The notes beneath the pieces were generated by a model. That model had not been told where the DNA came from and made no database searches. It saw only the letters and a program-made list of their open reading frames with translations. Positions 1,150 to 64,000 of a stretch of 64,000 nucleotides of DNA are shown here, in pieces. Every line of letters begins with the position of its first letter. Position 1 is the stretch's first letter. Position numbers and translations under genes: made by a program. Source of the DNA: Terebella lapidaria (lineage: Eukaryota > Annelida > Polychaeta > Terebellida > Terebellidae); assembly GCA_949152475.1 (NCBI GenBank), contig OX424559.1:15717809-15781808 (forward strand), written 5' to 3'.

Positions 1150-1372
1150 CGAAGTAGCCAAGTCGTCTGCACGAAGTACTAAGTCGCCCCCTCGAAGTAC
1201 TAAGTCCTTCGCACGAAGTACTACTTCGCTTGCACGAAGTACTAAGTCGTTTGCACGAAGCATAAGTCGTTTGCACGAAGTACTAAGTCGCTTGCATGAA
1301 GTACTAAGTCATTTGCACGAAGTACTAAGTCGTTTGCATGAAGTAGTAAATCGTTTGCACGATGGAAAGTTA
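1150..1372. repeat. 21-bp minisatellite
   Basis: About ten imperfect units of roughly 21 bp built on GCACGAAGTACTAAGTCGTTT. Because the period is divisible by three, both strands stay open over the array and give spurious repetitive peptides (ARSTKSF or RANDLVL repeats). I regard it as non-coding tandem DNA. A related foldback (TTCGTGCGAACGAAGTAGTA) occurs alone at 1800-1832. Confidence 0.8.
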
Positions 1373-2444
1373 CATAGTTGACAAATCCATCTACATCATC
1401 GTACCCCACCAAATAACAAGCGCTACATGGCACTCCACATGGTGCTTCAAATTTGGTGCCTTATATCTCCGTAAGCACCACATGACGCTCTAAATCATCC
1501 ATACTTCCCCTAGCAAAAATGTGATCATTTTAATCTAATTAATCTTGATTAATTAAAATAGATATTACTGAATACAATATTCTGCAATTATTTGAGGTAA
1601 ATTGATATTATCGATGAACTATTCATTATTCTATTAGTTGATTAATAAATGTAAATAGAGGATCCAGGTTTAGGAAATTGGGAGGACCTTGAAAATTGAC
1701 TATGGTAATTAAAGCGTTGATTGTTAACATTAGGATCACTCACTTCATAGGCTTAGTACAATGTTCGAATACAATGTATGGATATGTGAATGACTTATTA
1801 TTTCGTGCGAACGAAGTAGTACTTCGTGCAAACCCCAAAGGTTTTTTTCCATCATGTCCTATCACGGGCACCGTACTTACATGTAGATCTAGACTTATAT
1901 TTTACTGATACTTCCAGGTACAAAAATTCGGAATAAAAATGAAAAAAAAAAAATCTGTAATGTTGACATTAGGTGTGTATTGCGAGTTCAGATTATTGAA
2001 ACAGAAACATCGTAGTATAAGTAGAAACAACTAGTTTACATAATGCAAATGTTGGATGATGGGGGAACCAATACAGACTTTACAGGATTTAGTAAAATAT
2101 TGAGTCCAGTATAGATTTTCTGAATACCGTAAACTCTGTATTGGACGACCAGCATCCAATATTTGCTATATATTATCAATAGAACCAATCAGATAGTTAA
2201 TCTATTTGCATTTCATGTGCTCTTGAAGAGTTCATGATGAACCCAATGAAAACGAAACGACAAGATGACTTTGTTCAAACAAACACGCACAGGCCAATAT
2301 ACGCAATCCCAATGTCTCGGATTCAGTACACCTTTTTTAAGGGACAGACATGCGGATTGAAAGAGACTATCGCGCTGTCCGATACACGAATGCAATATAC
2401 CATATTGGGATCCAGCATACATTATTTGGGAGTGACACGTGGTA
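1373..2444. other. non-coding, AT-rich
   Basis: Apart from the small foldback near 1800-1832, nothing is recognised. It ends at the left target duplication (CAAAT, 2445-2449) of the BEL/Pao element. Confidence 0.5.
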
Positions 2445-2449
2445 CAAAT

Positions 2450-2812
2450 TGTAACGGCAGTTTCCCTATTCGTAGGTAGACGCAGATAGACGCAGACGCA
2501 ATTGGTTTCACCGATTTATTGACATCTACGATCGTAATTTTGAGGGATATTTGTTGACATTTATGACATCTATTGACATCTTCGATCTTTGTTATAAATG
2601 TGAAAACTTTTTGGCCTTTTATTGTAATTTTGAGGGATATTTGTTCGCAAAAAATTGCCGTCATTAGTGCGGATATAACTCGTTAGGTGTTGGCCGTGTC
2701 GCAGTACTGAAAAATCAACATAATGTATACAAAAAGATGAGAAAAATCAAACTAATGGCTCCTCGTGAGATCATAACGTACTAGTATCACAACAAGCCCA
2801 TGTTCACTCACA
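2450..2812 (-). repeat. BEL/Pao 3' LTR
   Basis: 363 bp, TG...CA bounded. It matches the 280-bp LTR at 7433-7712 from TGTAACGGCAGTTTCCC to CACTCACA. The extra length comes from an internal duplication around the TTGTTGACATTTATGACATC segment. Confidence 0.88.
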
Positions 2813-2944
2813 TGGCTCCTCCAATTTTGGAAACAAAATGTCTAACAACGAATTCTAGGAACAAACAAATATCAATATATTCTGAAACATATTTCAAGTT
2901 ATCATGTTATCATATCAATACGATTAATTAGACTCAAGTGTCTC

Positions 2945-3240
2945 AGACGTCCTTGTACTCGAGCAGAAGAACAAGTTTTTGAATTGGCCTTTCAAGGTAT
3001 GCATGTGTCCCTTGCACATTCTTGCCGGTTGATGTGTCGGCCATCATGACCCTAACATGACGCACATGGCCATCCTGTCCGGCGAATGTTTCGACGACCC
3101 GACCTAAGCGTCACTGGTTTCTAGGTAACTGGATGTCTTTCAACAAAACAACACCTCCGACCATCAGTCTGCGTCTAAATTGTGTCCATTTTTATCGCAC
3201 CTGTAACGCTTGAATGAAGTCTCTTTTCCAGCGGACACAG
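2945..3240 (-). pseudogene. BEL/Pao integrase C-terminal tail remnant
   Basis: The minus strand just inside the 3' LTR reads as the conserved tail of BEL/Pao polyproteins (DUF5641-like), with a run of the type LGRVVETFAGQDG followed by VMMADTSTGK and a final KLVLLLE. Its position directly before the 3' LTR fits the end of pol. Confidence 0.65.
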
Positions 3241-3579
3241 AATTCGTTGGCTAGATATTGAACACGGCGCCACCGCCTCCTGCAGTACATATCCGTTTCA
3301 GGAAGTTCCCTGGAGGTGGGAGGATCACTTTACTTTTCATGGTCAACAAATGGTTAGGAGTGAGCGGGTTGCAGAACACTAGGTCGTTCAAGTCTTTTTT
3401 TTATTTTTTTTTATACACAATATTTAATTGGATTGATCAACAGGACATTCCTATACAAAGATCTTTCCGGGTTCAAGTCTTGAACTGTTAGCGGCGACCA
3501 TTGATGACCGCAGCTGCTTCTGCCACCAAAGTCCATAAGAGTTCATCGTCCAGCTGTTCACTTACATCGTCCAACTAGA

Positions 3580-15200: not shown

Positions 15201-15508
15201 ACGGATACATGCATGAACATGTTTGTTGTTATTTCCAGGATATACTGGTAGCATACTATTTATTGAATGTGCCTATAATGGTTTTGGAGTGCTAACGGAC
15301 CTTTTTTGAGACGATCTCACAAGGTTTGTGTGTGTTTTTGGACCCTGTAAGGTAGCACACCCAATTATCGCCCACCCTGTGTGATTGTGTTTGTGTCATC
15401 GTGTCAAGGACCCATGGACACAAGTTAATTGGACACAACCCGGTCCAAAAATCGTCACGCTCTATTGCTACGGCTTGGCGTGTGGCTCACCCGTCACCCA
15501 CTGGAACC

Positions 15509-17284
15509 ATGGCCCAAGCCTTGGGCAATGACCCGTTTAATGACACTACTACTGATATTACAATAGCCAACATAACACTGCCCACAGACTATTCCGTCAG
15601 CGATGTAACTCTAACTAACATGTCCATTCCACAATCACAAGACTTGTTCATCTCGCCATGCCCTGGTACAGATGCTGTGCAAGTAAAGGACAAGAAAAAG
15701 AAAAATGGCCAGAAAAACAACAAATCAAAGGGGAAATGTAATACTAGGGAGAAGTGTCACATCCCACAATGTAAGATCCCTCTAGACGAAATGGTGCAGT
15801 GCTATTTATGTCAAAGTTGGATACATCCAAGTTGTGTGGATGAGGATGACACTGACATAGTAGGAATATGGTCATGTCCCAAATGTCGTCTACTACCAAG
15901 TCAAGTAGGCAATCTCTTGGAGATTGTTAAGGAACAGACACATACCATTGCCATGCTCACCACCCAGATCAAGCATCTGAGTCATGAGGTAACTAACAGT
16001 CACAAAATTCAGCCAAATTGTACATCGGCAGACCATGACACACAACAAATAGCTACACTGACTAGAAAGCTAGACTCAGCCCATCAGAAGATAACTGGAT
16101 TGGAAGCCACAGAGAAAAAACTCTTGGAGCAATTAGAACGCACTAAATCTGAAATGTCCATGTTGAGCGAAAACCTTGTACAAACACGCCAACAAAACGC
16201 AGATGCTCTTACTAGGTTAAGTGTGGATACCTGGAAAGGGTTTAGAGAAGTGACGTCACCCACACGCACGCTTCTCTTCGGCAGCAGCATCATCAAATGC
16301 ATCTCAAGTGGGCATCTACACGACACTGACGTGATCTGCAAACCAGGTGCAGAAATTGCTGGTGCTATAGCAGCAATTAAGGATCTGGCAGATGCTGACA
16401 ACATATATCAGAAGGTCTGCCTTGTCATCGGGGGCAATGACTGTGCAAACCATGACCTCCAACCTGATGACATCATCAAAGACTACGAAAGACTGGTCGC
16501 CATGATAAAAGACAAAACAAGGGTTTCAGACATCACCATCTGCAGCATCTGCCCTCGTATCTTCCATGATAGTGAGTTCAACGAGAAGAGAAAATTAGTA
16601 AATGCTGGTCTGCAGGTCCTATGTGAAGACGAAGGCCTAAACTTCGTTGACAATGACAAGGTCTTCCACCTTGCTGACGGGTCCATGAATGACGGATATT
16701 TTCTCCATGACGGGACTCATCTCACGTTCAAGGCAACCAATAAACTCGCCAAGAATATTGGTCTCTCAATCAAAGATGTGGACAAAGGAGTATGTTCATC
16801 ACGTAAAGTCGAGAACAGCAAAACTAAGTCCAATGGAATTGGATCCCTTAGTGTGATGAAGAGTGCCACTAAATCCTTGGCACTCACAACCTCAAAGGTC
16901 CGCCATGACAGGGGCAGCAAGTTCCAAGCCTTCGCATGCGAGGTTAAAAGCCTGGAGGACGTAAAAGAGGCTATGGAGCAGGTCAGAAACAGCACAGCCG
17001 GAAGTGTGGCTACTCACCGGATTATGGCGTTTTGTCTCTCTCGTGATAATCCATCCACATCCTGTGTTGACGACGGTGAGCATGGTGCCGGGGGAAAACT
17101 GCTCCAACTTCTGCAGGAGAATGACGTCAAGGACGTGGTCGTTATTGTGTGTAGGTGGTATGGTGGGCAGCACCTTGGTGGCCGCCGATTTCAACATATC
17201 ACCGATGCTGGTCAACAGGTTCCATTCACAGCAGTCCATAGTACGAGACCAGCGACTTCACCCTACATCCCCTTACGAATATGA
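15509..17284 (+). CDS. CR1 LINE ORF1: PHD-like / coiled coil / SGNH esterase / IMPACT-like
   Basis: The ATG at 15509 (context AACCATGG) is preferred; the frame is open from 15401 but has no earlier ATG. Domains by position: a PHD-like Cys/His finger (15737-15905, ending WSCPKC); a coiled coil (15910-16230); an SGNH-hydrolase-like domain (16256-16770) with FGSSI, GGND and DGTH blocks; and an IMPACT/UPF0029-like domain (16905-17235) with FQAF, DDGE, GGKLL, CRWYGG and LGGRRFQHI. The IMPACT family is a conserved host fold (IMPACT/YIH1/YigZ), and its presence here suggests capture of a host domain. The frame ends just after it, while two CCHC knuckles continue in the +1 frame. ORF1 proteins bind the element RNA. 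Confidence 0.85.
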   Translation: MAQALGNDPFNDTTTDITIANITLPTDYSVSDVTLTNMSIPQSQDLFISPCPGTDAVQVKDKKKKNGQKNNKSKGKCNTREKCHIPQCKIPLDEMVQCYLCQSWIHPSCVDEDDTDIVGIWSCPKCRLLPSQVGNLLEIVKEQTHTIAMLTTQIKHLSHEVTNSHKIQPNCTSADHDTQQIATLTRKLDSAHQKITGLEATEKKLLEQLERTKSEMSMLSENLVQTRQQNADALTRLSVDTWKGFREVTSPTRTLLFGSSIIKCISSGHLHDTDVICKPGAEIAGAIAAIKDLADADNIYQKVCLVIGGNDCANHDLQPDDIIKDYERLVAMIKDKTRVSDITICSICPRIFHDSEFNEKRKLVNAGLQVLCEDEGLNFVDNDKVFHLADGSMNDGYFLHDGTHLTFKATNKLAKNIGLSIKDVDKGVCSSRKVENSKTKSNGIGSLSVMKSATKSLALTTSKVRHDRGSKFQAFACEVKSLEDVKEAMEQVRNSTAGSVATHRIMAFCLSRDNPSTSCVDDGEHGAGGKLLQLLQENDVKDVVVIVCRWYGGQHLGGRRFQHITDAGQQVPFTAVHSTRPATSPYIPLRI

Positions 17285-17480
17285 AGACTACGATCAGCGG
17301 CGCGATGGCGATTGGCGTACGGTGAAGTCACATGGAAGAAGCAAGGTCTCAGTCAGCCTGTGCGACTACTGCGGAGAACAAGGGCACCTCAAGGACAGAT
17401 GTCGACACGGCAAGACGCTTTTCTGCTTCAAGTGCAGCCGTCCTGGACACAAGGAAAAACTCTGTCACCTGTACTGCTAG
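17285..17480 (+). CDS. CR1 ORF1 C-terminal CCHC zinc knuckles (+1 frame)
   Basis: Two retroviral-type knuckles, CDYCGEQGHLKDRC (17361-17402) and CFKCSRPGHKEKLC (17424-17465), lie in the frame one base ahead of the rest of ORF1. That frame is open back to 17004 through the IMPACT-like region. A single-base indel between about 17215 and 17280, or a programmed +1 shift, would explain the arrangement. The TAG at 17478-17480 closes it. The ORF2 frame is the same frame and is open from 17481. Confidence 0.75.
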
Positions 17481-17537
17481 GGATACGGCAACGTACAGGT
17501 AGCCGGTCACAGAATAGCAGAACATTTGGTTTTAGAC

Positions 17538-20500
17538 ATGTGTCATGAAACATGTACATACGAGAAAGGTTTTAACGATGATTATGTTGGTGATTTTTTT
17601 GACAATAGAAACAGATGCATGAATAAGGTATGTGTGGAACAAAATGTTCGTAAAGTAATCACGGAAAATAATTTTGATGAAATTATGTTTTCTGGTATAT
17701 ATGATGACAATTGTCAGTCTGCTCTGTCAGCTGACCATGACTCTGTTGAAAATGTACATAAAAGTGGCAATTTGGCTTGTGACAGTAATAAATGTGACAT
17801 GACTGATGAAAGTGCAGGTGACAATGCTACAAATGGTGACAAGGATTATAATAATGTACTATGTTCCGGTATACACGTGTATGATTACAATGCTCATTTT
17901 GATGTGACTGACGATAATGTACATAATGTTTATAACCATGAAACGAATTACACAAACCTAGACACCGCAGACAGTAATTATATGCACAAGGGAGAGATAG
18001 AAATCAGTGAACTAAAAGATTATTACGTAAAAAATATAAAAATTTTGAAATTCGCAAGTCTCAATATAAATAGCGTGAGACACAAATTTGGCCCTTTGGC
18101 CGAAGCACTGAGTAAATCGATCATTGATGTGCTTCTGCTACAGGAAACTAAACTAAACGACTCGTTTCCAATGTCGCAATTTAATATTCCGAATTTCAAA
18201 CTATATCGAAAAAATGTGTCTGAGGTGTCAGGGGGATTGATTTTGTTAATAAGAAATGACTTGCCTCAGAGGCGAAGGGAAGATTTGGAAAATTTCGAGT
18301 GCAAATCTGGAAGATTTGAAAATATTATTGTTGAGGTACATATCAATTCCAAGAAATGGCTTATTGTTAACCTGTATAAACAACCTTGTGTAAAGGATTC
18401 AGATTTGAAGGAAACAATGGAAAGGTTATTTATTAAGTTGAGTAATGAAAATCATAACTATGTTATATGTGGTGACCTCAATGTAAATTTCCTCAAACCA
18501 AATATTTTAGAGGAACTTTTAGAGACTTACGGGGCCAAAAACATTGTAAAACGTGCGACATGTTTCAAGAGTAAAGTACCCACTCTAATTGATGTTGTTT
18601 TAACTAATGCATCCAAGTGTTTACAAAATGTAACAAGTTTTGATAGCGACTTAAGTGATTTCCATCACATGCTGTGTTTTTCCAGTAGAACGCATGTCTC
18701 ATCCAGATCCAGTAGAAAAGTTGTGTATCGAAGCTATCGAAAATTTGACGAAGATAAATATTTGGAAGATTTGTCACGTATCCCTTTCCATGTATGTGAT
18801 ATCTTCGATGATGTTAACGACTGTTACTGGATGTGTCAAACAATGATAAAAGATGTAATTGATGAACATGCACCAGTGAAATCCAGAATTGTAAAACATA
18901 AGCAAAATCCTTACATGAATTCGGAACTTCGAAAATGTATTAATGTAAAAAACATGTTGAAGCGTAAATATTACAAATGTAGGACGCGTCAAAACTGGGA
19001 AACCTATAGAAAGTATAGAAATAGGGTTGGTAATTTGAGGAAAAAGAGTATGAAGCAGTATTTAAATAATAAGTGTAAAGTCAACAATGATGGAAAACAA
19101 TTTTGGAAACATATTAAACCATTAATATCAAATAAGGGGGCAAACCATGATGATAAGATAATATTGATGGAAAATGGCTCCGTTATTAATAATGCTGATG
19201 ATGTGTGTAATATTATGAATGAATATTATGTAAATGTTGCAGATCACATTGGGCATACAGATTCCATATTTAGTGGTGATAATTTTGACTCCATTATACG
19301 TAGACACGAAAATCATGAAAGTGTCTGTGATATAAAAGCTAGACATTCAAATAATACATTTTCCTTTGAACTTGTCTCAGAGGGAACGGTGTTAAATCAT
19401 TTGAAGGGTCTCAATATAAGGAAAGCCACTGGACACGACAATATCCCGCCCAAGCTGATCAAACTTGGTGCAGATGTTCTGGTTAAGCCCATACAGTCTC
19501 TCATCAATATGTCCATTGATAGTTGCACATTTCCAGATGATCTTAAATTGGCAGAAGTGAGGCCGATTCATAAGAAAAATAGTACACTAGAGAAGTCAAA
19601 TTTTAGACCTGTGAGCATTTTGCCATGTTTATCAAAAGTATTCGAAAGCGTTTTCATAGATCAAATGAGCAACTACATTGAACCCTTACTATCTAAGAAT
19701 ATATCGGGATTTAGGAAAGGGTACAGCTGTGAAAGTGTTTTAGTAAATTTAGTTAATCGGTGCAAGACATCTCTTGACAATAGACAGATCAGTGCTGCAT
19801 TGTTAACAGACTTATCCAAAGCTTTCGACTGTCTGCCACATGGGCTGATGGTCGCAAAGTTAAATGCATATGGGTTTGAGGCAGAGGCTTGCACGTTGCT
19901 GAGTAATTATTTTCAAACTAGAATGCAGAGAGTTAAAATAGGAAAGGACACAAGTGAGTGGATGATGATCAAAAAAGGGGCAGCGCAAGGATCTAAGATG
20001 GGTCCTTTCTTGTACAATATTTACTCAAATGATCTGATGTATGTTCTCGAAAATGTATGTGATATTTATAACTATGCTGACGACAACACAATTTGTGTAC
20101 ATGATGATAATATTGACAAAGTTGTCACCAAGATCAGATCAGCATCAGCTATTATGCTGGAGTGGTTTGAGAACAATTACTTACAGGCCAATGCGTCTAA
20201 GTTTCAGTTCATTGTATTCGGCCAAGATAAGCAAGATATATCTCTGTGCATCAATGATAGCGTTACACTCACGTCTGAAAGTTCTGTAAAAGTGTTAGGG
20301 GTCCATATTGACCATGCCCTAAACTTTGACCTTCACATTTCAGAATTATGCAAGAAGGCTGGTAAATATCTAAGTGTGTTGGGCCGTTTATCGAAAGCTT
20401 TGGACTGTAAGGAGAAATTATTACTATTTGAAAGTTTTATTTTGTCACAGTTTAATTACTGCCCATTAGTATGGCACAACTGTAGCTTGAAAAATATAAA

Positions 20501-20930
20501 AAAAATTGAGAAAATCCAAGAAAGAGCTCTAAGGTTTGTTTTCAATGACTTTCAGTCAACATATAGTGAATTAAGGAATCTCAGTGGGAAATCCTTGTTA
20601 TATGTACAAAGACTTAGGCTTGTTGCTCTTCAAGTTTTCAAATCCTTGAACTATGATCATACCGGGCCCCAATATTTATTGGACATGTTCAAAATTAAGG
20701 AATCCAGATATGAGATGAAATGCTTACTCCCCCTGTCCCCACCTAAATTTAATACCATTAAGTATGGAAAAAATACAATTAGGTATGAGGGAGCAGCTTT
20801 GTGGAATAAGTTATCGAACGATCTCAAAAGTGTTACAGAATATACAAAATTTAAAAGAAATATCGCCAAATGGGAAGGTCCTACATGCTCATGTTCCTAT
20901 TGTAATTTATGTATTCTGTCACAAATCTGA
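17538..20930 (+). CDS. CR1 LINE ORF2: endonuclease / reverse transcriptase
   Basis: The frame is open from 17481; the first ATG is at 17538, giving about 1130 residues. A D/N-rich leader of about 165 residues precedes the AP-like endonuclease, which has ASLNINSVR, LLQETKL, SGGLILLIRNDLP, CGDLNVNF and SDFHH motifs. The reverse transcriptase follows with FRPVSILPCLSKVFE, LTDLSKAFDCLPHG, AAQGSKMGPFLYNIYSND and the catalytic YADDNT box (near 20071), then KVLGVHID and a Cys-rich C-terminus (CSCSYCNLC). It nicks DNA and reverse-transcribes the LINE RNA. It looks fully intact. Confidence 0.92.
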   Translation: MCHETCTYEKGFNDDYVGDFFDNRNRCMNKVCVEQNVRKVITENNFDEIMFSGIYDDNCQSALSADHDSVENVHKSGNLACDSNKCDMTDESAGDNATNGDKDYNNVLCSGIHVYDYNAHFDVTDDNVHNVYNHETNYTNLDTADSNYMHKGEIEISELKDYYVKNIKILKFASLNINSVRHKFGPLAEALSKSIIDVLLLQETKLNDSFPMSQFNIPNFKLYRKNVSEVSGGLILLIRNDLPQRRREDLENFECKSGRFENIIVEVHINSKKWLIVNLYKQPCVKDSDLKETMERLFIKLSNENHNYVICGDLNVNFLKPNILEELLETYGAKNIVKRATCFKSKVPTLIDVVLTNASKCLQNVTSFDSDLSDFHHMLCFSSRTHVSSRSSRKVVYRSYRKFDEDKYLEDLSRIPFHVCDIFDDVNDCYWMCQTMIKDVIDEHAPVKSRIVKHKQNPYMNSELRKCINVKNMLKRKYYKCRTRQNWETYRKYRNRVGNLRKKSMKQYLNNKCKVNNDGKQFWKHIKPLISNKGANHDDKIILMENGSVINNADDVCNIMNEYYVNVADHIGHTDSIFSGDNFDSIIRRHENHESVCDIKARHSNNTFSFELVSEGTVLNHLKGLNIRKATGHDNIPPKLIKLGADVLVKPIQSLINMSIDSCTFPDDLKLAEVRPIHKKNSTLEKSNFRPVSILPCLSKVFESVFIDQMSNYIEPLLSKNISGFRKGYSCESVLVNLVNRCKTSLDNRQISAALLTDLSKAFDCLPHGLMVAKLNAYGFEAEACTLLSNYFQTRMQRVKIGKDTSEWMMIKKGAAQGSKMGPFLYNIYSNDLMYVLENVCDIYNYADDNTICVHDDNIDKVVTKIRSASAIMLEWFENNYLQANASKFQFIVFGQDKQDISLCINDSVTLTSESSVKVLGVHIDHALNFDLHISELCKKAGKYLSVLGRLSKALDCKEKLLLFESFILSQFNYCPLVWHNCSLKNIKKIEKIQERALRFVFNDFQSTYSELRNLSGKSLLYVQRLRLVALQVFKSLNYDHTGPQYLLDMFKIKESRYEMKCLLPLSPPKFNTIKYGKNTIRYEGAALWNKLSNDLKSVTEYTKFKRNIAKWEGPTCSCSYCNLCILSQI

Positions 20931-21132: not shown

Positions 21133-21168
21133 AATAAAGTTTTATTCTATTCTATATTCTATTCTATC
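21133..21168 (+). repeat. CR1 3' terminus with polyadenylation signal and ATTCT repeats
   Basis: AATAAA is followed by repeated ATTCTATTCT-like units, the kind of short 3' tandem tail that CR1 elements use in place of poly(A). Confidence 0.75.
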
Positions 21169-30605: not shown

Positions 30606-32804
30606 CCCAGCAAACATGTCAGTATCGGCCCAGTATCGTATTATTGCCGGTTTAGTAATGTTCATACCGTACATCGGTAACCATTATTTAGCCAGTACTG
30701 GCCCTGTAACGGTTGTCATTATTGTCGATAGACCTAAATACATCACATTCACGATGTCACTGGGCCATTAGTGGCACGATCTTGGATGTCGTTATTGTCA
30801 ATACTTCTTAAACTATAATGGTCATGCAGTCTCTGGGCCAGTTGTGGCACAATATCGGCTCTCCTTATTGGTGATGATGTGAATCTATAATGGCCATCCA
30901 GTCTCTGGGCCAGTAGTAGCACAATATCGGCTCTCCTTATTAGTGATGATTTGAATCTATAAAGGCCATCCAGTCTCTGGGCCAGTAGTGGCACAATATC
31001 GGCTCTCCTTATTGGTGATGATTTGAATCTATAATGGCCATCCAGTCTCTGGGCCAGTAGTGGCACAATATCGGCTCTCCTTATTGGTGATGATCTGAAT
31101 CCATAATGGCCATCCAGTCTTTGGGCCAGTAGTGGCACAATATCGGCTCTCCTTATTGGTGATGATTTGAATCTATAACGGCCATCCAGTCTCTGGGCTA
31201 GTAGTGGCACAATATCGGCTCTCCTTATCGGTGATGATCTGAATCTATAATGGCCATCCAGTCTCTGGGCCAGTAGTGGCACAATATCGGCTCTCCTTAT
31301 CGGTGATGATCTGAATCTATAATGGCCATCCAGTCTCTGGGCCAGTAGTGGCACAATATCGGCTCTCCTTATCGGTGATGATCTGAATCTATAATGGCCA
31401 TCCAGTCTCTGGGCCAGTAGTGGCACAATATCGGCTCTCCTTATTGGTGATGATCTGAATCCATAATGGCCATCCAGTCTTTGGGCCAGTAGTGGCACAA
31501 TATCGGCTCTCCTTATTGGTGATGATTTGAATCTATAACGGCCATCCAGTCTCTGGGCTAGTAGTGGCACAATATCGGCTCTCCTTATCGGTGATGATTT
31601 GAATCTATAATGGCCATCCAGTCTCTGGGCCAGTAGTGGCACAATATCGGCTCTCCTTATCGGTGATGATCTGAATCTATAATGGCCATCCAGTCTCTGG
31701 GCCAGTAGTGGCACAATATCGGCTCTCCTTATCGGTGATGATTTGAATCTATAACGGCCATCCAGTCTCTGGGCCAGTAGTAGCACAATATCGGCTCTCC
31801 TTATTGGTGACGATTTGAATCTATAATGGCCATCCAGTCTCTGGGCCAGTAGTGGCACAATATCGGCTCTCCTTATCGGTGATGATCTGAATCTATAAAG
31901 GCCATCCAGTCTCTGGGCCAGTAGTGGCACAATATCGGCTCTCCTTATTGGTGATGATCTGAATCTATAACGGCCATCCAGTCTCTGGGCCAGCAGTGGC
32001 GCGATATCGGCTGTGATTAATGGTAGCCTACCGGGCCAGTAACTGCGAAATACTTCTGCCGACGTTGGATCAACTTTACTGGACCAATGTTGGGCCAACA
32101 TCGTGGAATGGTCAAATGGCAGCCATGTTGGATTCGATATTTTGATAATTGCCAATTTTCATATTTGGTGAGGGGCACTTATTTTATGGAGGCAGAATGG
32201 CAAATCAGCAATGAATCCATAATTTTTCAAAAGTTTATGACTTTATTCACGGATGAAATGAGTGATTATTTACTGATATATTATAATTACATTACCGGCC
32301 TGTCATCGTTACAATAAAGGCTAAAGAATAACTCAGCAATGCAGGTCCATGAATGAGCCAATTGTAATGCACTGGAGAGTACAATACGTCACTAATACCC
32401 TGCCGGGAACGATCTTGTGATGGTCCCGTACTGGACCAGTACTAGACTGGTTTTAGCACGAAATACTGGCCCGGTGCTGAATAATGTATTGGTCACCGGT
32501 GTTGGCCCAATATTGCACCTTTGTGCAAACGTTGCTGGCCCTTCATCGGTATCGTTAGATATTACATGTATTGGGCCGAGTTTCCAACGTATTGTGGGCC
32601 AGTACTGGACCGGTTTTAACACGAAATACTGGCCCGATACTGGATCGTTTTTGGACCAATATTGGTCACCGGTATTGGCCCAATATTGCGCCTCTGTGCA
32701 AAAGTTGCTGGCACGATATAGGAGCCTTTGTGATACCCTGTAATGGGCCGATTTGCCAAGGTGCATTGGGCCAGTACTGGACCAGTTGTGGAATGTTAGC
32801 TGGG
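30606..32804. mobile_element. TIR element built around a 72-bp tandem array
   Basis: The ends CCCAGCAAACAT (30606-30617) and, inverted, CCCAGCTAACAT (32793-32804) delimit 2.2 kb filled with variations on GGGCCAGTACTGG and TATTGGCCCAATATTG. The core is the 72-bp array. No transposase is present, so it is non-autonomous. A target duplication is not clear. A two-unit relative lies at 655-860. Confidence 0.65.
30818..32025. repeat. 72-bp tandem array, about 17 units
   Basis: The units run GGCCATCCAGTCTCTGGGCC, AGTAGTGGCACAATATCGGC, TCTCCTTATTGGTGATGAT, CTGAATCTATAAT. Unit variants (for example CTTTGGGCC, or CTCTGGGCTAG followed by TTATCGG) recur in the same order about 360 bp apart (near 31110-31250 and 31470-31610), which suggests expansion by multi-unit duplication. 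Since 72 is divisible by three, the minus strand stays open for 468 codons; I do not regard that as a gene. Confidence 0.92.
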
Positions 32805-60330: not shown

Positions 60331-62055
60331 ATGAAAAATGGACTCACCGGTCGCGCTTCAATTCAGCCAGGCTTGTACATGTGAGACATATATGGTCACT
60401 TCTGAATATACAAAATTCTCAAGACCTGAGAAAAAAACAAAGCACAAATAATATGATGTCATTGTTACATATTATCCATTTATATGATCTTTATCCTGGC
60501 TATGATAAGGAAATGATTGCGTCTGTTTAGACAACTTTGAACCATACAACTCCATAAACGCTAGGTCTGTGGTGGAGCGTTCACACGCACATGGCAAGCT
60601 GTATTGACCAGGTTTCAGACTGATCGCAGGTCTTTCCAGTGATAATCCGTCTTAAAGAGATGATTGAAAACTATACTTATATCCGTGTTCTCCCGTTTAC
60701 GTTTAGCACTGCCACCTACAGGCAAATGCATATGGGTTCAGTAGGAACACCACAAACATGTTGTGACATGGAATATATATGATTCTACCTCGGCCCACAG
60801 TATGTGACGTCAGCCAAATTAACTTTCTGCAATGATGAGCACTGACCCAGTGAACAAACACGTGTTATTTTGAGCCTACACAGTTTACACACTTGCAAGT
60901 GTTTTTGGCTCAAGGACCTTTTCGAGTGGATCGTCAAGGTTCAGTGTGTCAGGTATTTATGTATGGGATAGTGACTCAGGTTGATTGATTCGCCCAGTTA
61001 GTAACCTTTACTATTTAGATGACTTTAGACCTTTATATTGCTCACAATTGAAGTTTGAAGTATTTGAAACCTTCATTTCATACAGTGTTGCTGTACATGG
61101 GCCACAAGTTTTGAAAACATTGTGGTCAATGTTTGGACACTATATATTTGTGGACCACATATGTGGGCGAGGGCCTATTCATCAACAAATTCATGAACAT
61201 AGTCTCCTATGGATATTTAGACAGTACATACTTGTACATTGGTATCTCGTACACTGCATCGAATCCCTGATCTAAGGTAATATGTTCAGTATTTTGCAGA
61301 AACATTATTTTAATCCCCATGTGTCGGCATCAGCTGCCAAAAAGTTAGCATTACAGCGTTGACATCAACATGACCTGAATCCTAAACTAAAGAACTAGGC
61401 CGGACAATGCTCTATGCCATTTGGCAGGGTGCATACCCGCTAGCAGGTATATGAGTTATATATCAACCGCTGGAGAACAATAGGACCAGTAACTAATCAC
61501 GAATAAAAACCTTGGCCTTCTGCTTTGGTCTCTCTTCGTGAGAAATACTCAGCCTAGGGCATTTTCACATACTTAGATGTTGGAATAATGCCGATTTGGA
61601 CAATGCGACATGACAGGTCTGGTCATAGGTAATGGGCTAAACAAAATAGACAACACCGGTATTCGAGGAGTTGCTAGCGGTAAAAACAAAGGGGAAGAGA
61701 TTGGGACCTAAGACAAACGCTGATATGTACATTATTCTGGTATATAGAAGAGCCAGTTTATACAGATTACACTGTACATTGTTTGGAGGTTTGTTGATAA
61801 TAATCACCGATAACTGTGCAGGGAACCAACAAGACATTATTCAAATTGTTTTAGTTCCTCCCATTTATTCAAATGTCTGCTTGGGAAGTAAAATGAAATC
61901 ACACAGAACGGTTAGCAAATATTCAACATACTGGTATCAATGATGTGCAGACTTTCAACATCTAACTATGTTGGAGCTATATTTTCAATACATTTGGATA
62001 AATAATGTCTTAGGTGATACCGCTGGATGACAATTTGTTTCCAATGCTATTTCAG
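60331..62055. other. upstream and 5' intronic DNA of the cGAS-like gene
   Basis: No recognised repeat or coding domain. A GTTTACACACTTGCAAGTG-type short palindrome lies near 60880-60905. The frame at 60985-61275 has no features of a real gene. The stretch ends in a pyrimidine-rich tract and splice acceptor, so at least its last part is an intron and a 5' non-coding exon probably lies here or before the window. Confidence 0.45.
62050..62055 (+). promoter_or_regulatory. splice acceptor of the cGAS-like coding exon
   Basis: TTTCAG after a T-rich stretch (TTTGTTTCCAATGCTATTTCAG region). The exon begins at 62056, 17 bp before the ATG. Confidence 0.6.
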
Positions 62056-62072
62056 ATTGTGGTGCCATAAAC

Positions 62073-63458
62073 ATGGAAGAAACAGAAGAATTGTTCTACA
62101 CAGCCTTGCGAAGTGACAAAAGTGACATGGGTCCACCACGCTCTCAGCCATATACACAACATGAATTCCGGGAAGGAATGAGAATGGCACATGCTGTCGT
62201 GGCACATGGCGACCTAAAATCTCGCCATAAAAAGTTGGTCAACTTTGACCGTGATCATCCTGTCATTATTAACGTGGAGGATGTTGTAGATGATACGCAT
62301 CGTGGAGTCCTGCGAACATTTCCTCTGAAAGGCAGCTTGGAGCCAGTCGGAAGCTGCGCTGACGAGTGCCGTGTGGGGCAAACTTCAGAGATGGACTTCC
62401 TCTATGTCATTTCTGATGATTTCACGTTTACGAAGTCAGATGAAGGCAAGTATTTCGAGATCTTCACAACAACTGGTGAGAAGTTAGTCCCATCGTCAGT
62501 AGTTCCTCAGTTTGCTGATGCAGTGGAGGCCGCCGTGCAGAATTGTCCACACATCGGTTCAGCAGCAATACAACATGGTGGCTACAGAAGTCCTAAATTC
62601 AGTGGTGTTAGGTATAGTGGGCCAGCAGTCACCATACTGCTCAGGTATTCCCCAGAAGAGAAGTCAACACAACGCATAGGAAATGTATTGCCTGGTGTAC
62701 TGATATCAGAGAATAAGGGTGACATTGACATTTCCATCGACTTCACATTGGCTTTCAAACTGAGAGCTGACAGTGAAGTTGTAGCAAATGTTCGTGCGGG
62801 ACTGATGCCTTTACAGCAAGCACTGCCCAGAAAGGCAATCTCGAAGACAGACGTCCATTTTGTACCTGATCTCAAAAATGATGGATGGCTCCTGACAACA
62901 TCTCGACTTGAGGCAAAACTATTCTCTACTGTACCTGACAACGCATCTGTCAAAATGGCGTTTGCTCTCTGTAAAATCGTCAGCTATCAGAGTGCATACA
63001 CAGATCACGAATCCAAAACACCTCTGCAAACTGGGTTGGCACAAACACTCGAAAGTGCTAAGCAGGAACCAACAGGAGATTGCCTAAATAGATCTATGAG
63101 ATTCGCTCATTGTTTCCTCACACAGGAAGATGCATTCAGACTGGGAGAATGCACGAAAGCAGATATCAAATTGAATGCTGCTGCTCTGAAGCATATCTTG
63201 CTTGCCAAATCATTACAAGAACCAGTTTTCTTCCAAGAAGGCAATGACACCAAAAAAGATTTCAAAAACCTGGTCCTCGGCACATTTGCGATATGTGCTA
63301 ATCTGCAATCATCACACATTCCACACTCATTGATTACCGGTTCTGTGATCAATGTCTTTGCTATAGCGAAATCTGTTCTGCTTTGTGTGGAGAAGCAACT
63401 GGAGTTGAAGAGAGATATGAGAGCAAAATGTGCTTTATGCTGTCAGCTGTTTGATGAG
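62073..63458 (+). CDS. cGAS-like receptor (Mab-21 fold nucleotidyltransferase), partial
   Basis: About 462 residues lie in this exon; the ATG has context AAACATGG. Residues 1-85 are helical. At 93-112 the sequence PVGSCADECRVGQTSEMDFL gives the nucleotidyltransferase motif: Gly93-Ser94, then Glu106 and Asp108, with the same spacing as human cGAS Ser213 to Glu225/Asp227. The third acid is Asp223 in ISIDFTLAF, which closely matches cGAS ISVDITLAL. A Mab-21 C-terminal lobe follows (DGWLLTTSRLEAKLF at about 270-284, then MAFALCKIVSY). No cGAS-type zinc thumb is evident. Enzymes of this family sense nucleic acid and make cyclic dinucleotides for STING, but the ligand cannot be told here. The exon ends at 63458 with a strong donor, so the protein continues past the window; the open frame to 63500 is intronic. 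Confidence 0.85.
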
Positions 63459-63464
63459 GTAAGG
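63459..63464 (+). promoter_or_regulatory. splice donor of the cGAS-like exon
   Basis: GATGAG|GTAAGG at 63453-63464 matches the donor consensus. Reading through it adds only about 13 unrelated residues before a stop. Confidence 0.7.
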
Positions 63465-64000
63465 AGCAACTTACATATAAAAAGATATGGTATATTGTGA
63501 ATATATGTGTATGACATATATTGTATTTGTAATCATGCAATATTTTGACTGTCGAAAAGCATTGTTTTGATACGACTTTGTATGACGATGTGTATATTTA
63601 ATCTCCAATGGCATGTCTTGTTTCCATAATGTAACTGATATAAGCACGATGAGTGTTGAGTTGACATGTGGCGATTATTTTGAAGATTTAGTTGACTAAT
63701 TTAAGTCAGTCTGCCATTTTCTTAACTTAAGGAACTTTTGCATTCTCATTTGAGTCAATTGACATCCTGGATATGGCATGGAACAAATTGCTTTTGAAAA
63801 AAAAATGACTGGAAAGCAAAGATTGCGTCACACACAGTCACCTATTAAATCCCCCCCCCCCCCCACACACACACGTTTTTTTACCTTTGACTTCCTCACA
63901 ACCCGTCCATTCCCCCACACAACCCGTTAATCTCGCCCTCCTGTCCTCCCTGAGCCTTTGCGTTTTACGCTCCCTCCAGTCCATTCCTACTCACCACTCG
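63465..64000. other. probable intron
   Basis: AT-rich, with a C14 run and CA repeat at 63851-63874 and a C/T-rich tail. No further exon is recognised before the window ends. Confidence 0.55.

Follow-up and report, generated by a model that had tools for sequence, protein, structure and literature searches.

An IMPACT (UPF0029) domain in ORF1 of four LINE lineages of the annelid Terebella lapidaria, and a conserved in-frame UAG between ORF1 and ORF2

Main findings

An IMPACT (UPF0029) domain is an inherited and selected part of the ORF1 protein in four distantly related LINE lineages of one genome, that of the polychaete Terebella lapidaria. In one of them, lineage I, the stop of ORF1 is an in-frame UAG closely followed by an invariant motif, and the same frame continues as ORF2, which encodes the endonuclease and reverse transcriptase (RT); ORF2 of this lineage is most likely made by stop-codon readthrough. 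An overall explanation that is probable as a whole combines three parts: a selected IMPACT module in ORF1 of several LINE lineages, UAG readthrough in lineage I, and, less surely, an accessory role of the IMPACT domain. Domain capture by LINE ORF1 is already known from other systems (PMC4120745, PMC5563155). In the open-licence PMC literature, no description of IMPACT/UPF0029 or NADAR domains in LINEs was found, nor, by titles and the beginnings of abstracts, a LINE with such a UAG readthrough.

The LINE of the window

The window, the whole stretch of 64,000 nucleotides that was analysed, contains one LINE of at least 5.6 kb at about 15.5-21.2 kb, with the ORF1 ATG at 15509, ORF2 at 17481-20930 and the tail near 21141-21168. 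Its features are as follows:

15509..17284, plus strand: ORF1 frame from first ATG to stop, in a broken copy (stop-to-stop frame 15356-17284)
15779..15886, plus strand: PHD-finger, Pfam PF00628, ORF1 residues 91-126 (E 6.8e-05; 23.3 bits, just below the cut-off of 24)
16385..16726, plus strand: SGNH/GDSL esterase, Pfam PF13472 match (E 9.8e-09)
16910..17218, plus strand: IMPACT/UPF0029 domain (Pfam E 8.3e-27 within ORF1; Yih1 as PDB relative; fold)
17361..17402, plus strand: CCHC zinc knuckle 1, in the ORF2 frame (zf-CCHC profile and frame comparison)
17424..17465, plus strand: CCHC zinc knuckle 2, in the ORF2 frame (zf-CCHC profile and frame comparison)
17478..17505, plus strand: in-frame TAG (17478-17480) with the conserved motif TAG-G-N5-GGC-N-A-N-G-N8-GCC-G, a candidate readthrough signal (junction comparison across families)
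17481..20930, plus strand: ORF2 frame, 1149 codons open straight after the TAG, stop at 20928-20930 (frame reading)
18054..18650, plus strand: APE-type endonuclease, Pfam PF03372 (E 1.3e-07)
19566..20309, plus strand: reverse transcriptase, Pfam PF00078 (E 1.1e-26)
21141..21168, plus strand: likely 3' end, (ATTCT)n-like tail (by eye)

The element is an APE-type LINE, with an endonuclease/exonuclease/phosphatase domain and RVT_1 within one ORF2, and a PDB search relates its RT to R2 and LINE-1 proteins. ORF1 of this copy is broken: compared with ORF1 of locus L013, the frame shifts between 17221 and 17262, upstream of both knuckles (zf-CCHC E 3.8e-04). In other copies (e.g. L013, L020, L021), ORF1 is uninterrupted from the IMPACT domain through both knuckles. 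A Gly-Ser-Ser block, read by eye, lies upstream of the PF13472 match at 16280-16288. Chicken CR1 carries an 8-bp 3' terminal repeat; the window tail, judged only by eye, looks ATTCT-like rather than like an 8-mer.

The layout resembles the type IV (esterase) and PHD types of ORF1 in the CR1/L2/Jockey group, which likewise combine esterase and PHD in ORF1 with APE endonuclease and RT in ORF2 (PMC4120745). As far as the available text of that source goes, its ORF1 types comprise RRM, CCHC, PHD, CC, zf/lz, Tnp22/CTD and esterase; IMPACT is unmentioned, and the esterase type is reported in vertebrate groups only (PMC4120745).

Identity and fold of the IMPACT domain

The initial annotation had proposed an IMPACT/UPF0029-like domain directly after the esterase of ORF1, and had named a missing UPF0029 profile match as an outcome that would speak against it. 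Pfam PF01205 matches strongly, with E 4.8e-28 for the domain alone and 8.3e-27 in ORF1, over profile positions 1-105 of 107 and at 97.7 bits against a cut-off of 27. The position beside the esterase also holds, in many copies, in Pfam scans of the window and other loci. The peptides quoted at the time are placed differently: they do lie within the ORF1 frame (15356-17284), but not in the frame starting at 16905, which contains a stop.

A structure prediction likewise agrees, with a model at pLDDT 88 whose best folds are TTHA1053, YigZ and Yih1. By sequence, the PDB relative is yeast Yih1 (6bqi, E 3.5e-16), and a profile of the LINE domains reaches E 7.6e-30 with Yih1 vs 1.2e-06 and 4.1e-04 with two YigZ-type structures. 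By structure, the bacterial YigZ family gives the best Z (2cve 15.6, 1vi7 14.9), but the full-length NCBIfam YigZ model TIGR00257 remains far below its cut-off (47.2 of 168 bits, precisely 167.95, over only positions 21-110 of 205). Short YigZ-like proteins of Paracoccus, encoded by plasmid genes, are 40% identical to the LINE domain.

DDGE and RW(Y/F)GG..LG are signature motifs of the UPF0029/IMPACT family. The window copy has DDGE, RWYGG and RF.HI, and across 25 LINE domains D57, E60, W86 and G93 are invariant and R85 almost so. RWYGG is altered in lineage IV (RWASG, RWYSG or similar) and in some lineage II rows (RWNGP or RWCGS). The window copy has in common with eukaryotic IMPACT/Yih1 the UPF0029 domain with these three motifs and the same fold. 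Unlike IMPACT/Yih1, the LINE version comes without an RWD domain, and its neighbours within the same retrotransposon ORF1 protein are a PHD finger, an esterase and zinc knuckles; in the window ORF1, RWD (PF05773) was absent from a Pfam scan at E up to 1.

This difference bears on the role first suggested for the domain, namely translational regulation through GCN1/GCN2. Here, the captured domain would compete for GCN1, eIF2alpha would stay unphosphorylated and the element would be translated under stress. The family does include Yih1/IMPACT, a competitor for Gcn1 that thereby inhibits Gcn2 (PMC4503747), and the closer fit of the LINE profile to Yih1 than to YigZ-type structures points the same way. 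In yeast, however, it is changes in RWD helix H3 that lower Gcn1 binding, and overexpressed RWD alone inhibits, while the same papers, in their available text, call the function of the ancient (UPF0029) domain unknown (PMC4503747, PMC7140605). Since in Yih1 the changes tested for Gcn1 binding lie in the RWD, which also inhibits by itself, competition for GCN1 is possible but less likely, and can be called unlikely overall.

Copies, lineages and domain architectures

A search of the genome (761.6 Mb) gave 381 candidates, 150 of which were scored; counts by position are therefore lower bounds. Every scored candidate (150/150) passes the Pfam cut-off, and 140 have no internal stop. This rules out a chance or one-off insertion of a host gene, which the initial annotation had named as another outcome that would speak against capture.

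Twenty loci of 9.9 kb were read, and one IMPACT-bearing open frame per locus was scanned with Pfam; several of the esterase and PHD matches among them fall below Pfam cut-offs. Two domain orders predominate. The order esterase-IMPACT is found in the window, L013, L017, L018, L023, L024 and L025, and the order IMPACT-esterase in L009 to L012, L014 to L016 and L020 to L022. ORF1 of lineage I accordingly reads either PHD, coiled coil, esterase, IMPACT and two knuckles, or PHD, IMPACT, esterase and knuckles. L019 and L026 have coiled-coil matches and then IMPACT at the ORF1 end, with no esterase match; L027 has IMPACT only, and L028 has IMPACT followed by a weak esterase match. In a single copy, L023 (reverse complement 1202-3433), ORF1 carries two IMPACT stretches with an extra knuckle between them, an internal duplication.

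Comparison of ten ORF2s separates three lineages: lineage I (the window and most loci), lineage II (L019, L026) and lineage III (L027, L028). ORF2 identity is 22-27% between them over long spans and at least 43% inside each; L019 and L026 are 56% identical to each other and 23-27% identical to lineage I, and L027 and L028 are 59% identical. Lineage IV is represented by locus L065, whose 496-aa ORF1 contains UPF0029 (E 4e-20) and is followed by an APE endonuclease. To the eye, this ORF1 looked L1-like (Tnp22), an impression neither supported nor refuted by Pfam, by PDB or by a model predicted from the single sequence (pLDDT 34).

Position provides an independent check on the association of the domain with LINEs. 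IMPACT lies upstream on the same strand of at least 11 of 39 lineage I ORF2 hits and at least 24 of 31 lineage II ORF2 hits (each within 3.5 kb), at least six of eight lineage III ORF2 hits (within 6 kb) and at least 23 of 119 lineage IV endonuclease hits; on the opposite strand, lineage IV gave 0 of 119 within 6 kb. Because ten lineage II ORF2 copies are 99-100% identical with 1198-aa open frames, this lineage was recently active; UPF0029 lies upstream in nine of the ten. Some lineage I elements (L032, L036) carry no IMPACT, so the domain is not essential to a LINE of this type.

Selection, descent and donor

The IMPACT domain in LINEs evolves under purifying selection. Between subfamilies, pS is 0.62-0.90 (mostly saturated) and pN 0.12-0.35. 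Of 25 pairs run, 16 were saturated, and dN/dS is 0.09-0.19 in the five computable pairs with dS of at least 0.2. Four very close pairs gave dN/dS of 0.25, 0.33, 0.99 and 2.17; the two highest values come from close lineage III copies (L028/L054 0.99, L028/L056 2.17), as expected of dead copies. Such a mix is the pattern given by transposons with a working domain plus dead insertions.

A neutral passenger, that is, a processed host IMPACT fragment caught once and now decaying, would fit the frameshift in the window copy and the two lineage III pairs with dN/dS near or above 1. It is contradicted by selection across saturated synonymous divergence, by the presence of the domain in four lineages and two domain orders, and by the near-identical lineage II copies that combine an open ORF2 with IMPACT, which together make it highly improbable.

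A domain tree was built from 27 of 41 LINE domains (near-identical ones removed) and four outgroups, with the lineage labels of 20 short loci (L045-L064) assigned by eye from sequence. Tree groups follow the LINE lineage (lineage I order A 97/96, order B 94/94; lineage III 96/100; lineage IV 100/99), while lineage II splits into pieces and the tree gives no order for the forks between lineages. One capture followed by exchange between LINEs and several captures fit this tree alike.

Searches for a donor covered host, virus and bacteria. The host's own IMPACT gene was looked for in two ways and not found: seven matches to the RWD family turned up, but the six stretches cut out around them (L039-L044) contain no UPF0029 in tblastn with E values up to 1, and a back-translated pattern had no match. 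An IMG/VR scan showed no viral relative, and a BFVD fold search gave nothing at E 0.001. With the lineage II domain as tblastn query, bacterial genomes yielded no relative; among plasmid records, 13 have YigZ-like matches. A comparable capture is the viral RNA helicase of insect TRAS and Jockey elements, where a foreign domain likewise entered more than one LINE lineage and, in Jockey, ORF1; it differs in having an RNA virus as donor and in being a helicase domain (PMC5563155).

NADAR as an alternative module

Ten loci were picked by ORF2 similarity to the window, each without a listed IMPACT match, and six of them were Pfam-scanned. In L029 and L031, the stretch flanked by a weak esterase match on one side and the knuckles on the other contains a NADAR domain (PF08719), with E 1.2e-20 and 6.4e-21 and 74.9 and 75.7 bits, respectively, vs a cut-off of 35.1. 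L032, L036 and L038 have an esterase and neither IMPACT nor NADAR; L033, a fused frame, also has neither. One open frame at L033:2023-4200 combines PHD, endonuclease and a weak match to the esterase without a junction motif, the stop region seemingly having been deleted so that ORF1 and ORF2 are joined.

Genome-wide, NADAR gave 973 candidates, and all 150 of those scored are above the cut-off. The domain is amplified like a transposon domain: the scored 150 often lie in open frames of 400-500 aa, with many near-identical sets. Upstream of the 119 lineage IV endonuclease hits, NADAR lies in 29 cases and UPF0029 in 23, with no case of both. With only 30-36% identity between the NADAR-bearing endonucleases and that of L065, lineage IV is a broad group. 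In two distant LINE lineages (I and IV), IMPACT and NADAR therefore replace each other, and no element was seen with both.

The NADAR family removes ADP-ribose from guanine in nucleic acids and includes the antitoxins of DarT-NADAR operons; its role in animals is called unclear (PMC11125620). The same Pfam family occupies the IMPACT slot in L029 and L031, and the available text of that paper makes no mention of transposons (PMC11125620). It seems that LINEs have a slot in which modules of this kind can be exchanged. The replacement of IMPACT by NADAR in related LINEs also tells against competition for GCN1, to which NADAR is not known to be linked.

The UAG junction of lineage I

Lineage I elements have a TAG after the last knuckle, and the knuckle frame runs on beyond it as ORF2. 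Junctions were scanned in 31 stretches (the window and L009 to L038); the motif was required, the kind of stop was left free, and either a knuckle upstream or an endonuclease motif downstream had to be in frame. The scan gave 24 sense junctions, all 24 with UAG and each with knuckle residues upstream in frame, plus one antisense chance match. It gave none in L009, L025, L033 and L035, nor in four lineage II and III loci. A knuckle-and-stop scan independent of the motif gave the same picture with one exception: the decayed copy L025, which was left out of the 13 families, has TGA at the end of its knuckle frame. The frame stays open for at least 192 codons after TAG in 12 of the 13 families (38 in L012), and in L021 open frames of 679 aa and 1071 aa stand on either side of the UAG.

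The motif is strongly conserved. Its TAG, GGC, A, G and GCC columns are invariant in 12 of the 13 families, L014, whose loop is shorter by 3 nt, being excluded from the alignment; each of the two G positions that follow TAG and GCC is conserved in 11 of 12. GGC and GCC codons are present in 13/13 families, compared with a usage in the same ORF2s of 29/238 Gly codons for GGC and 45/209 Ala codons for GCC; the chance of 13/13 is about 1e-12 (GGC) and 2e-9 (GCC) on the assumption of independent families, which holds only in part. Across the genome, the full motif is matched 50 times vs four times for a reversed control, a few of the 50 perhaps by chance; a version with TGA instead of TAG is matched twice, as is its control. 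The motif is found alongside IMPACT, alongside NADAR and in elements that lack both, and so does not depend on IMPACT.

Readthrough is inferred because all 24 junctions have UAG with an invariant motif and ORF2 in the same frame. A fraction of ribosomes would read the UAG and make a minor ORF1-ORF2 fusion, which may amount to a gag-pol-like control of the protein ratio for a LINE. Murine leukaemia virus gag-pol readthrough similarly uses an in-frame UAG between structural and polymerase frames, with a signal a few nt downstream (PMC8310308). There, the signal is a pseudoknot 8 nt away (PMC8310308), whereas at the LINE junction it is at most a 4-bp stem 5-6 nt away, and no pseudoknot was found. 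The stem, predicted by RNAalifold, consists of GGC/GCC and one further pair; because three of its pairs never vary, covariation cannot support it. Pairing of the loop and spacer with downstream sequence was at the level of shuffled sequence in 12 families, and five Rfam matches all fell below the gathering score.

The main alternative for ORF2 is termination and reinitiation at or after the UAG, aided by the downstream motif in the style of SART1 or LINE-1. SART1 uses a stop-restart with a downstream structure, and an unusual, AUG-independent reinitiation has been proposed for LINE-1 (PMC5972666, PMC5009743). Such a mechanism does not readily account for knuckles and ORF2 sharing one frame, for a stop that is UAG in every junction, or for the long open stretch after it. 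The first in-frame ATG of ORF2 falls anywhere from codon 18 to 113 across the 13 families. In L031 it is codon 113, with the endonuclease motif at codon 93, and in L036 the two are at codons 110 and 54; an AUG start could not give the whole endonuclease in either element, since the first in-frame ATG lies inside it. The ATG precedes the endonuclease motif in all other families checked (12 families in total). Reinitiation is accordingly a decidedly unlikely source of ORF2, and readthrough is the preferred one. With a conserved UAG junction of this kind, LINEs would control the ORF1:ORF2 ratio in a gag-pol-like manner.

Lineage II ORF2s carry a different sequence. After a hydrophobic stretch and before the endonuclease, L019 (reverse strand, about 3135) has EDVHPNPGP and L026 (reverse strand, about 3441) GDIHPNPGP, which can be taken as a 2A-like ending. 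Lineage II may therefore use a recoding device other than the UAG of lineage I.

Possible roles of the IMPACT domain

The ORF1 protein may coat the element RNA through its knuckles, and its esterase may attach it to membranes, in analogy to the liposome-binding esterase of ZfL2-1 (PMC3905857). To these, IMPACT might add a ligand-binding function that helps the element RNA survive or be translated. Tentatively, the domain can be regarded as a ligand-binding accessory module in the ORF1 ribonucleoprotein, shielding the element RNA or its translation from a host response. The reason for this reading is that NADAR, which removes ADP-ribose from guanine, takes the place of IMPACT in related elements.

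Another possibility is that IMPACT is an RNA- or ribosome-binding part of the ORF1 nucleocapsid, standing in for the RRM of other ORF1 types. No RRM family was found in the 21 IMPACT ORF1s scanned (E limit 1 for the window and 0.05 for the 20 loci), and the regions of Yih1 sufficient for binding Gcn1, actin and the ribosome are reported to encompass the linker beside the ancient domain (PMC4503747). But elements of the same lineage do without IMPACT, and zinc knuckles are already present, which leaves a nucleocapsid role doubtful.

A bolder form of the accessory-module reading treats the site as a plug-in slot of ORF1 that two or more LINE lineages fill with either IMPACT or NADAR, and in which both would do equivalent jobs against the same host response (e.g. 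removing or sensing ADP-ribosylated guanine in element RNA or cDNA), coupled with lineage I being the first LINEs with a retrovirus-like UAG readthrough. In this full form the proposal is speculative and rather unlikely. If it is true, it would offer a functional clue for the ancient IMPACT domain and explain many animal NADARs as retrotransposon proteins; if IMPACT and NADAR are interchangeable, LINEs would represent a natural experiment on the job of the ancient IMPACT domain and on why animals have NADARs.

Other open frames in the window

Two further open frames were seen. On the minus strand, window 30749-32158 holds a 469-aa open frame that consists of a tandem repeat of roughly 24 aa (a minisatellite), and its Pfam DUF1285 match is probably spurious. 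On the plus strand, window 62031-63500 holds a 489-aa open frame with a weak match to the Mab-21 nucleotidyltransferase (E 0.0048, below the cut-off).
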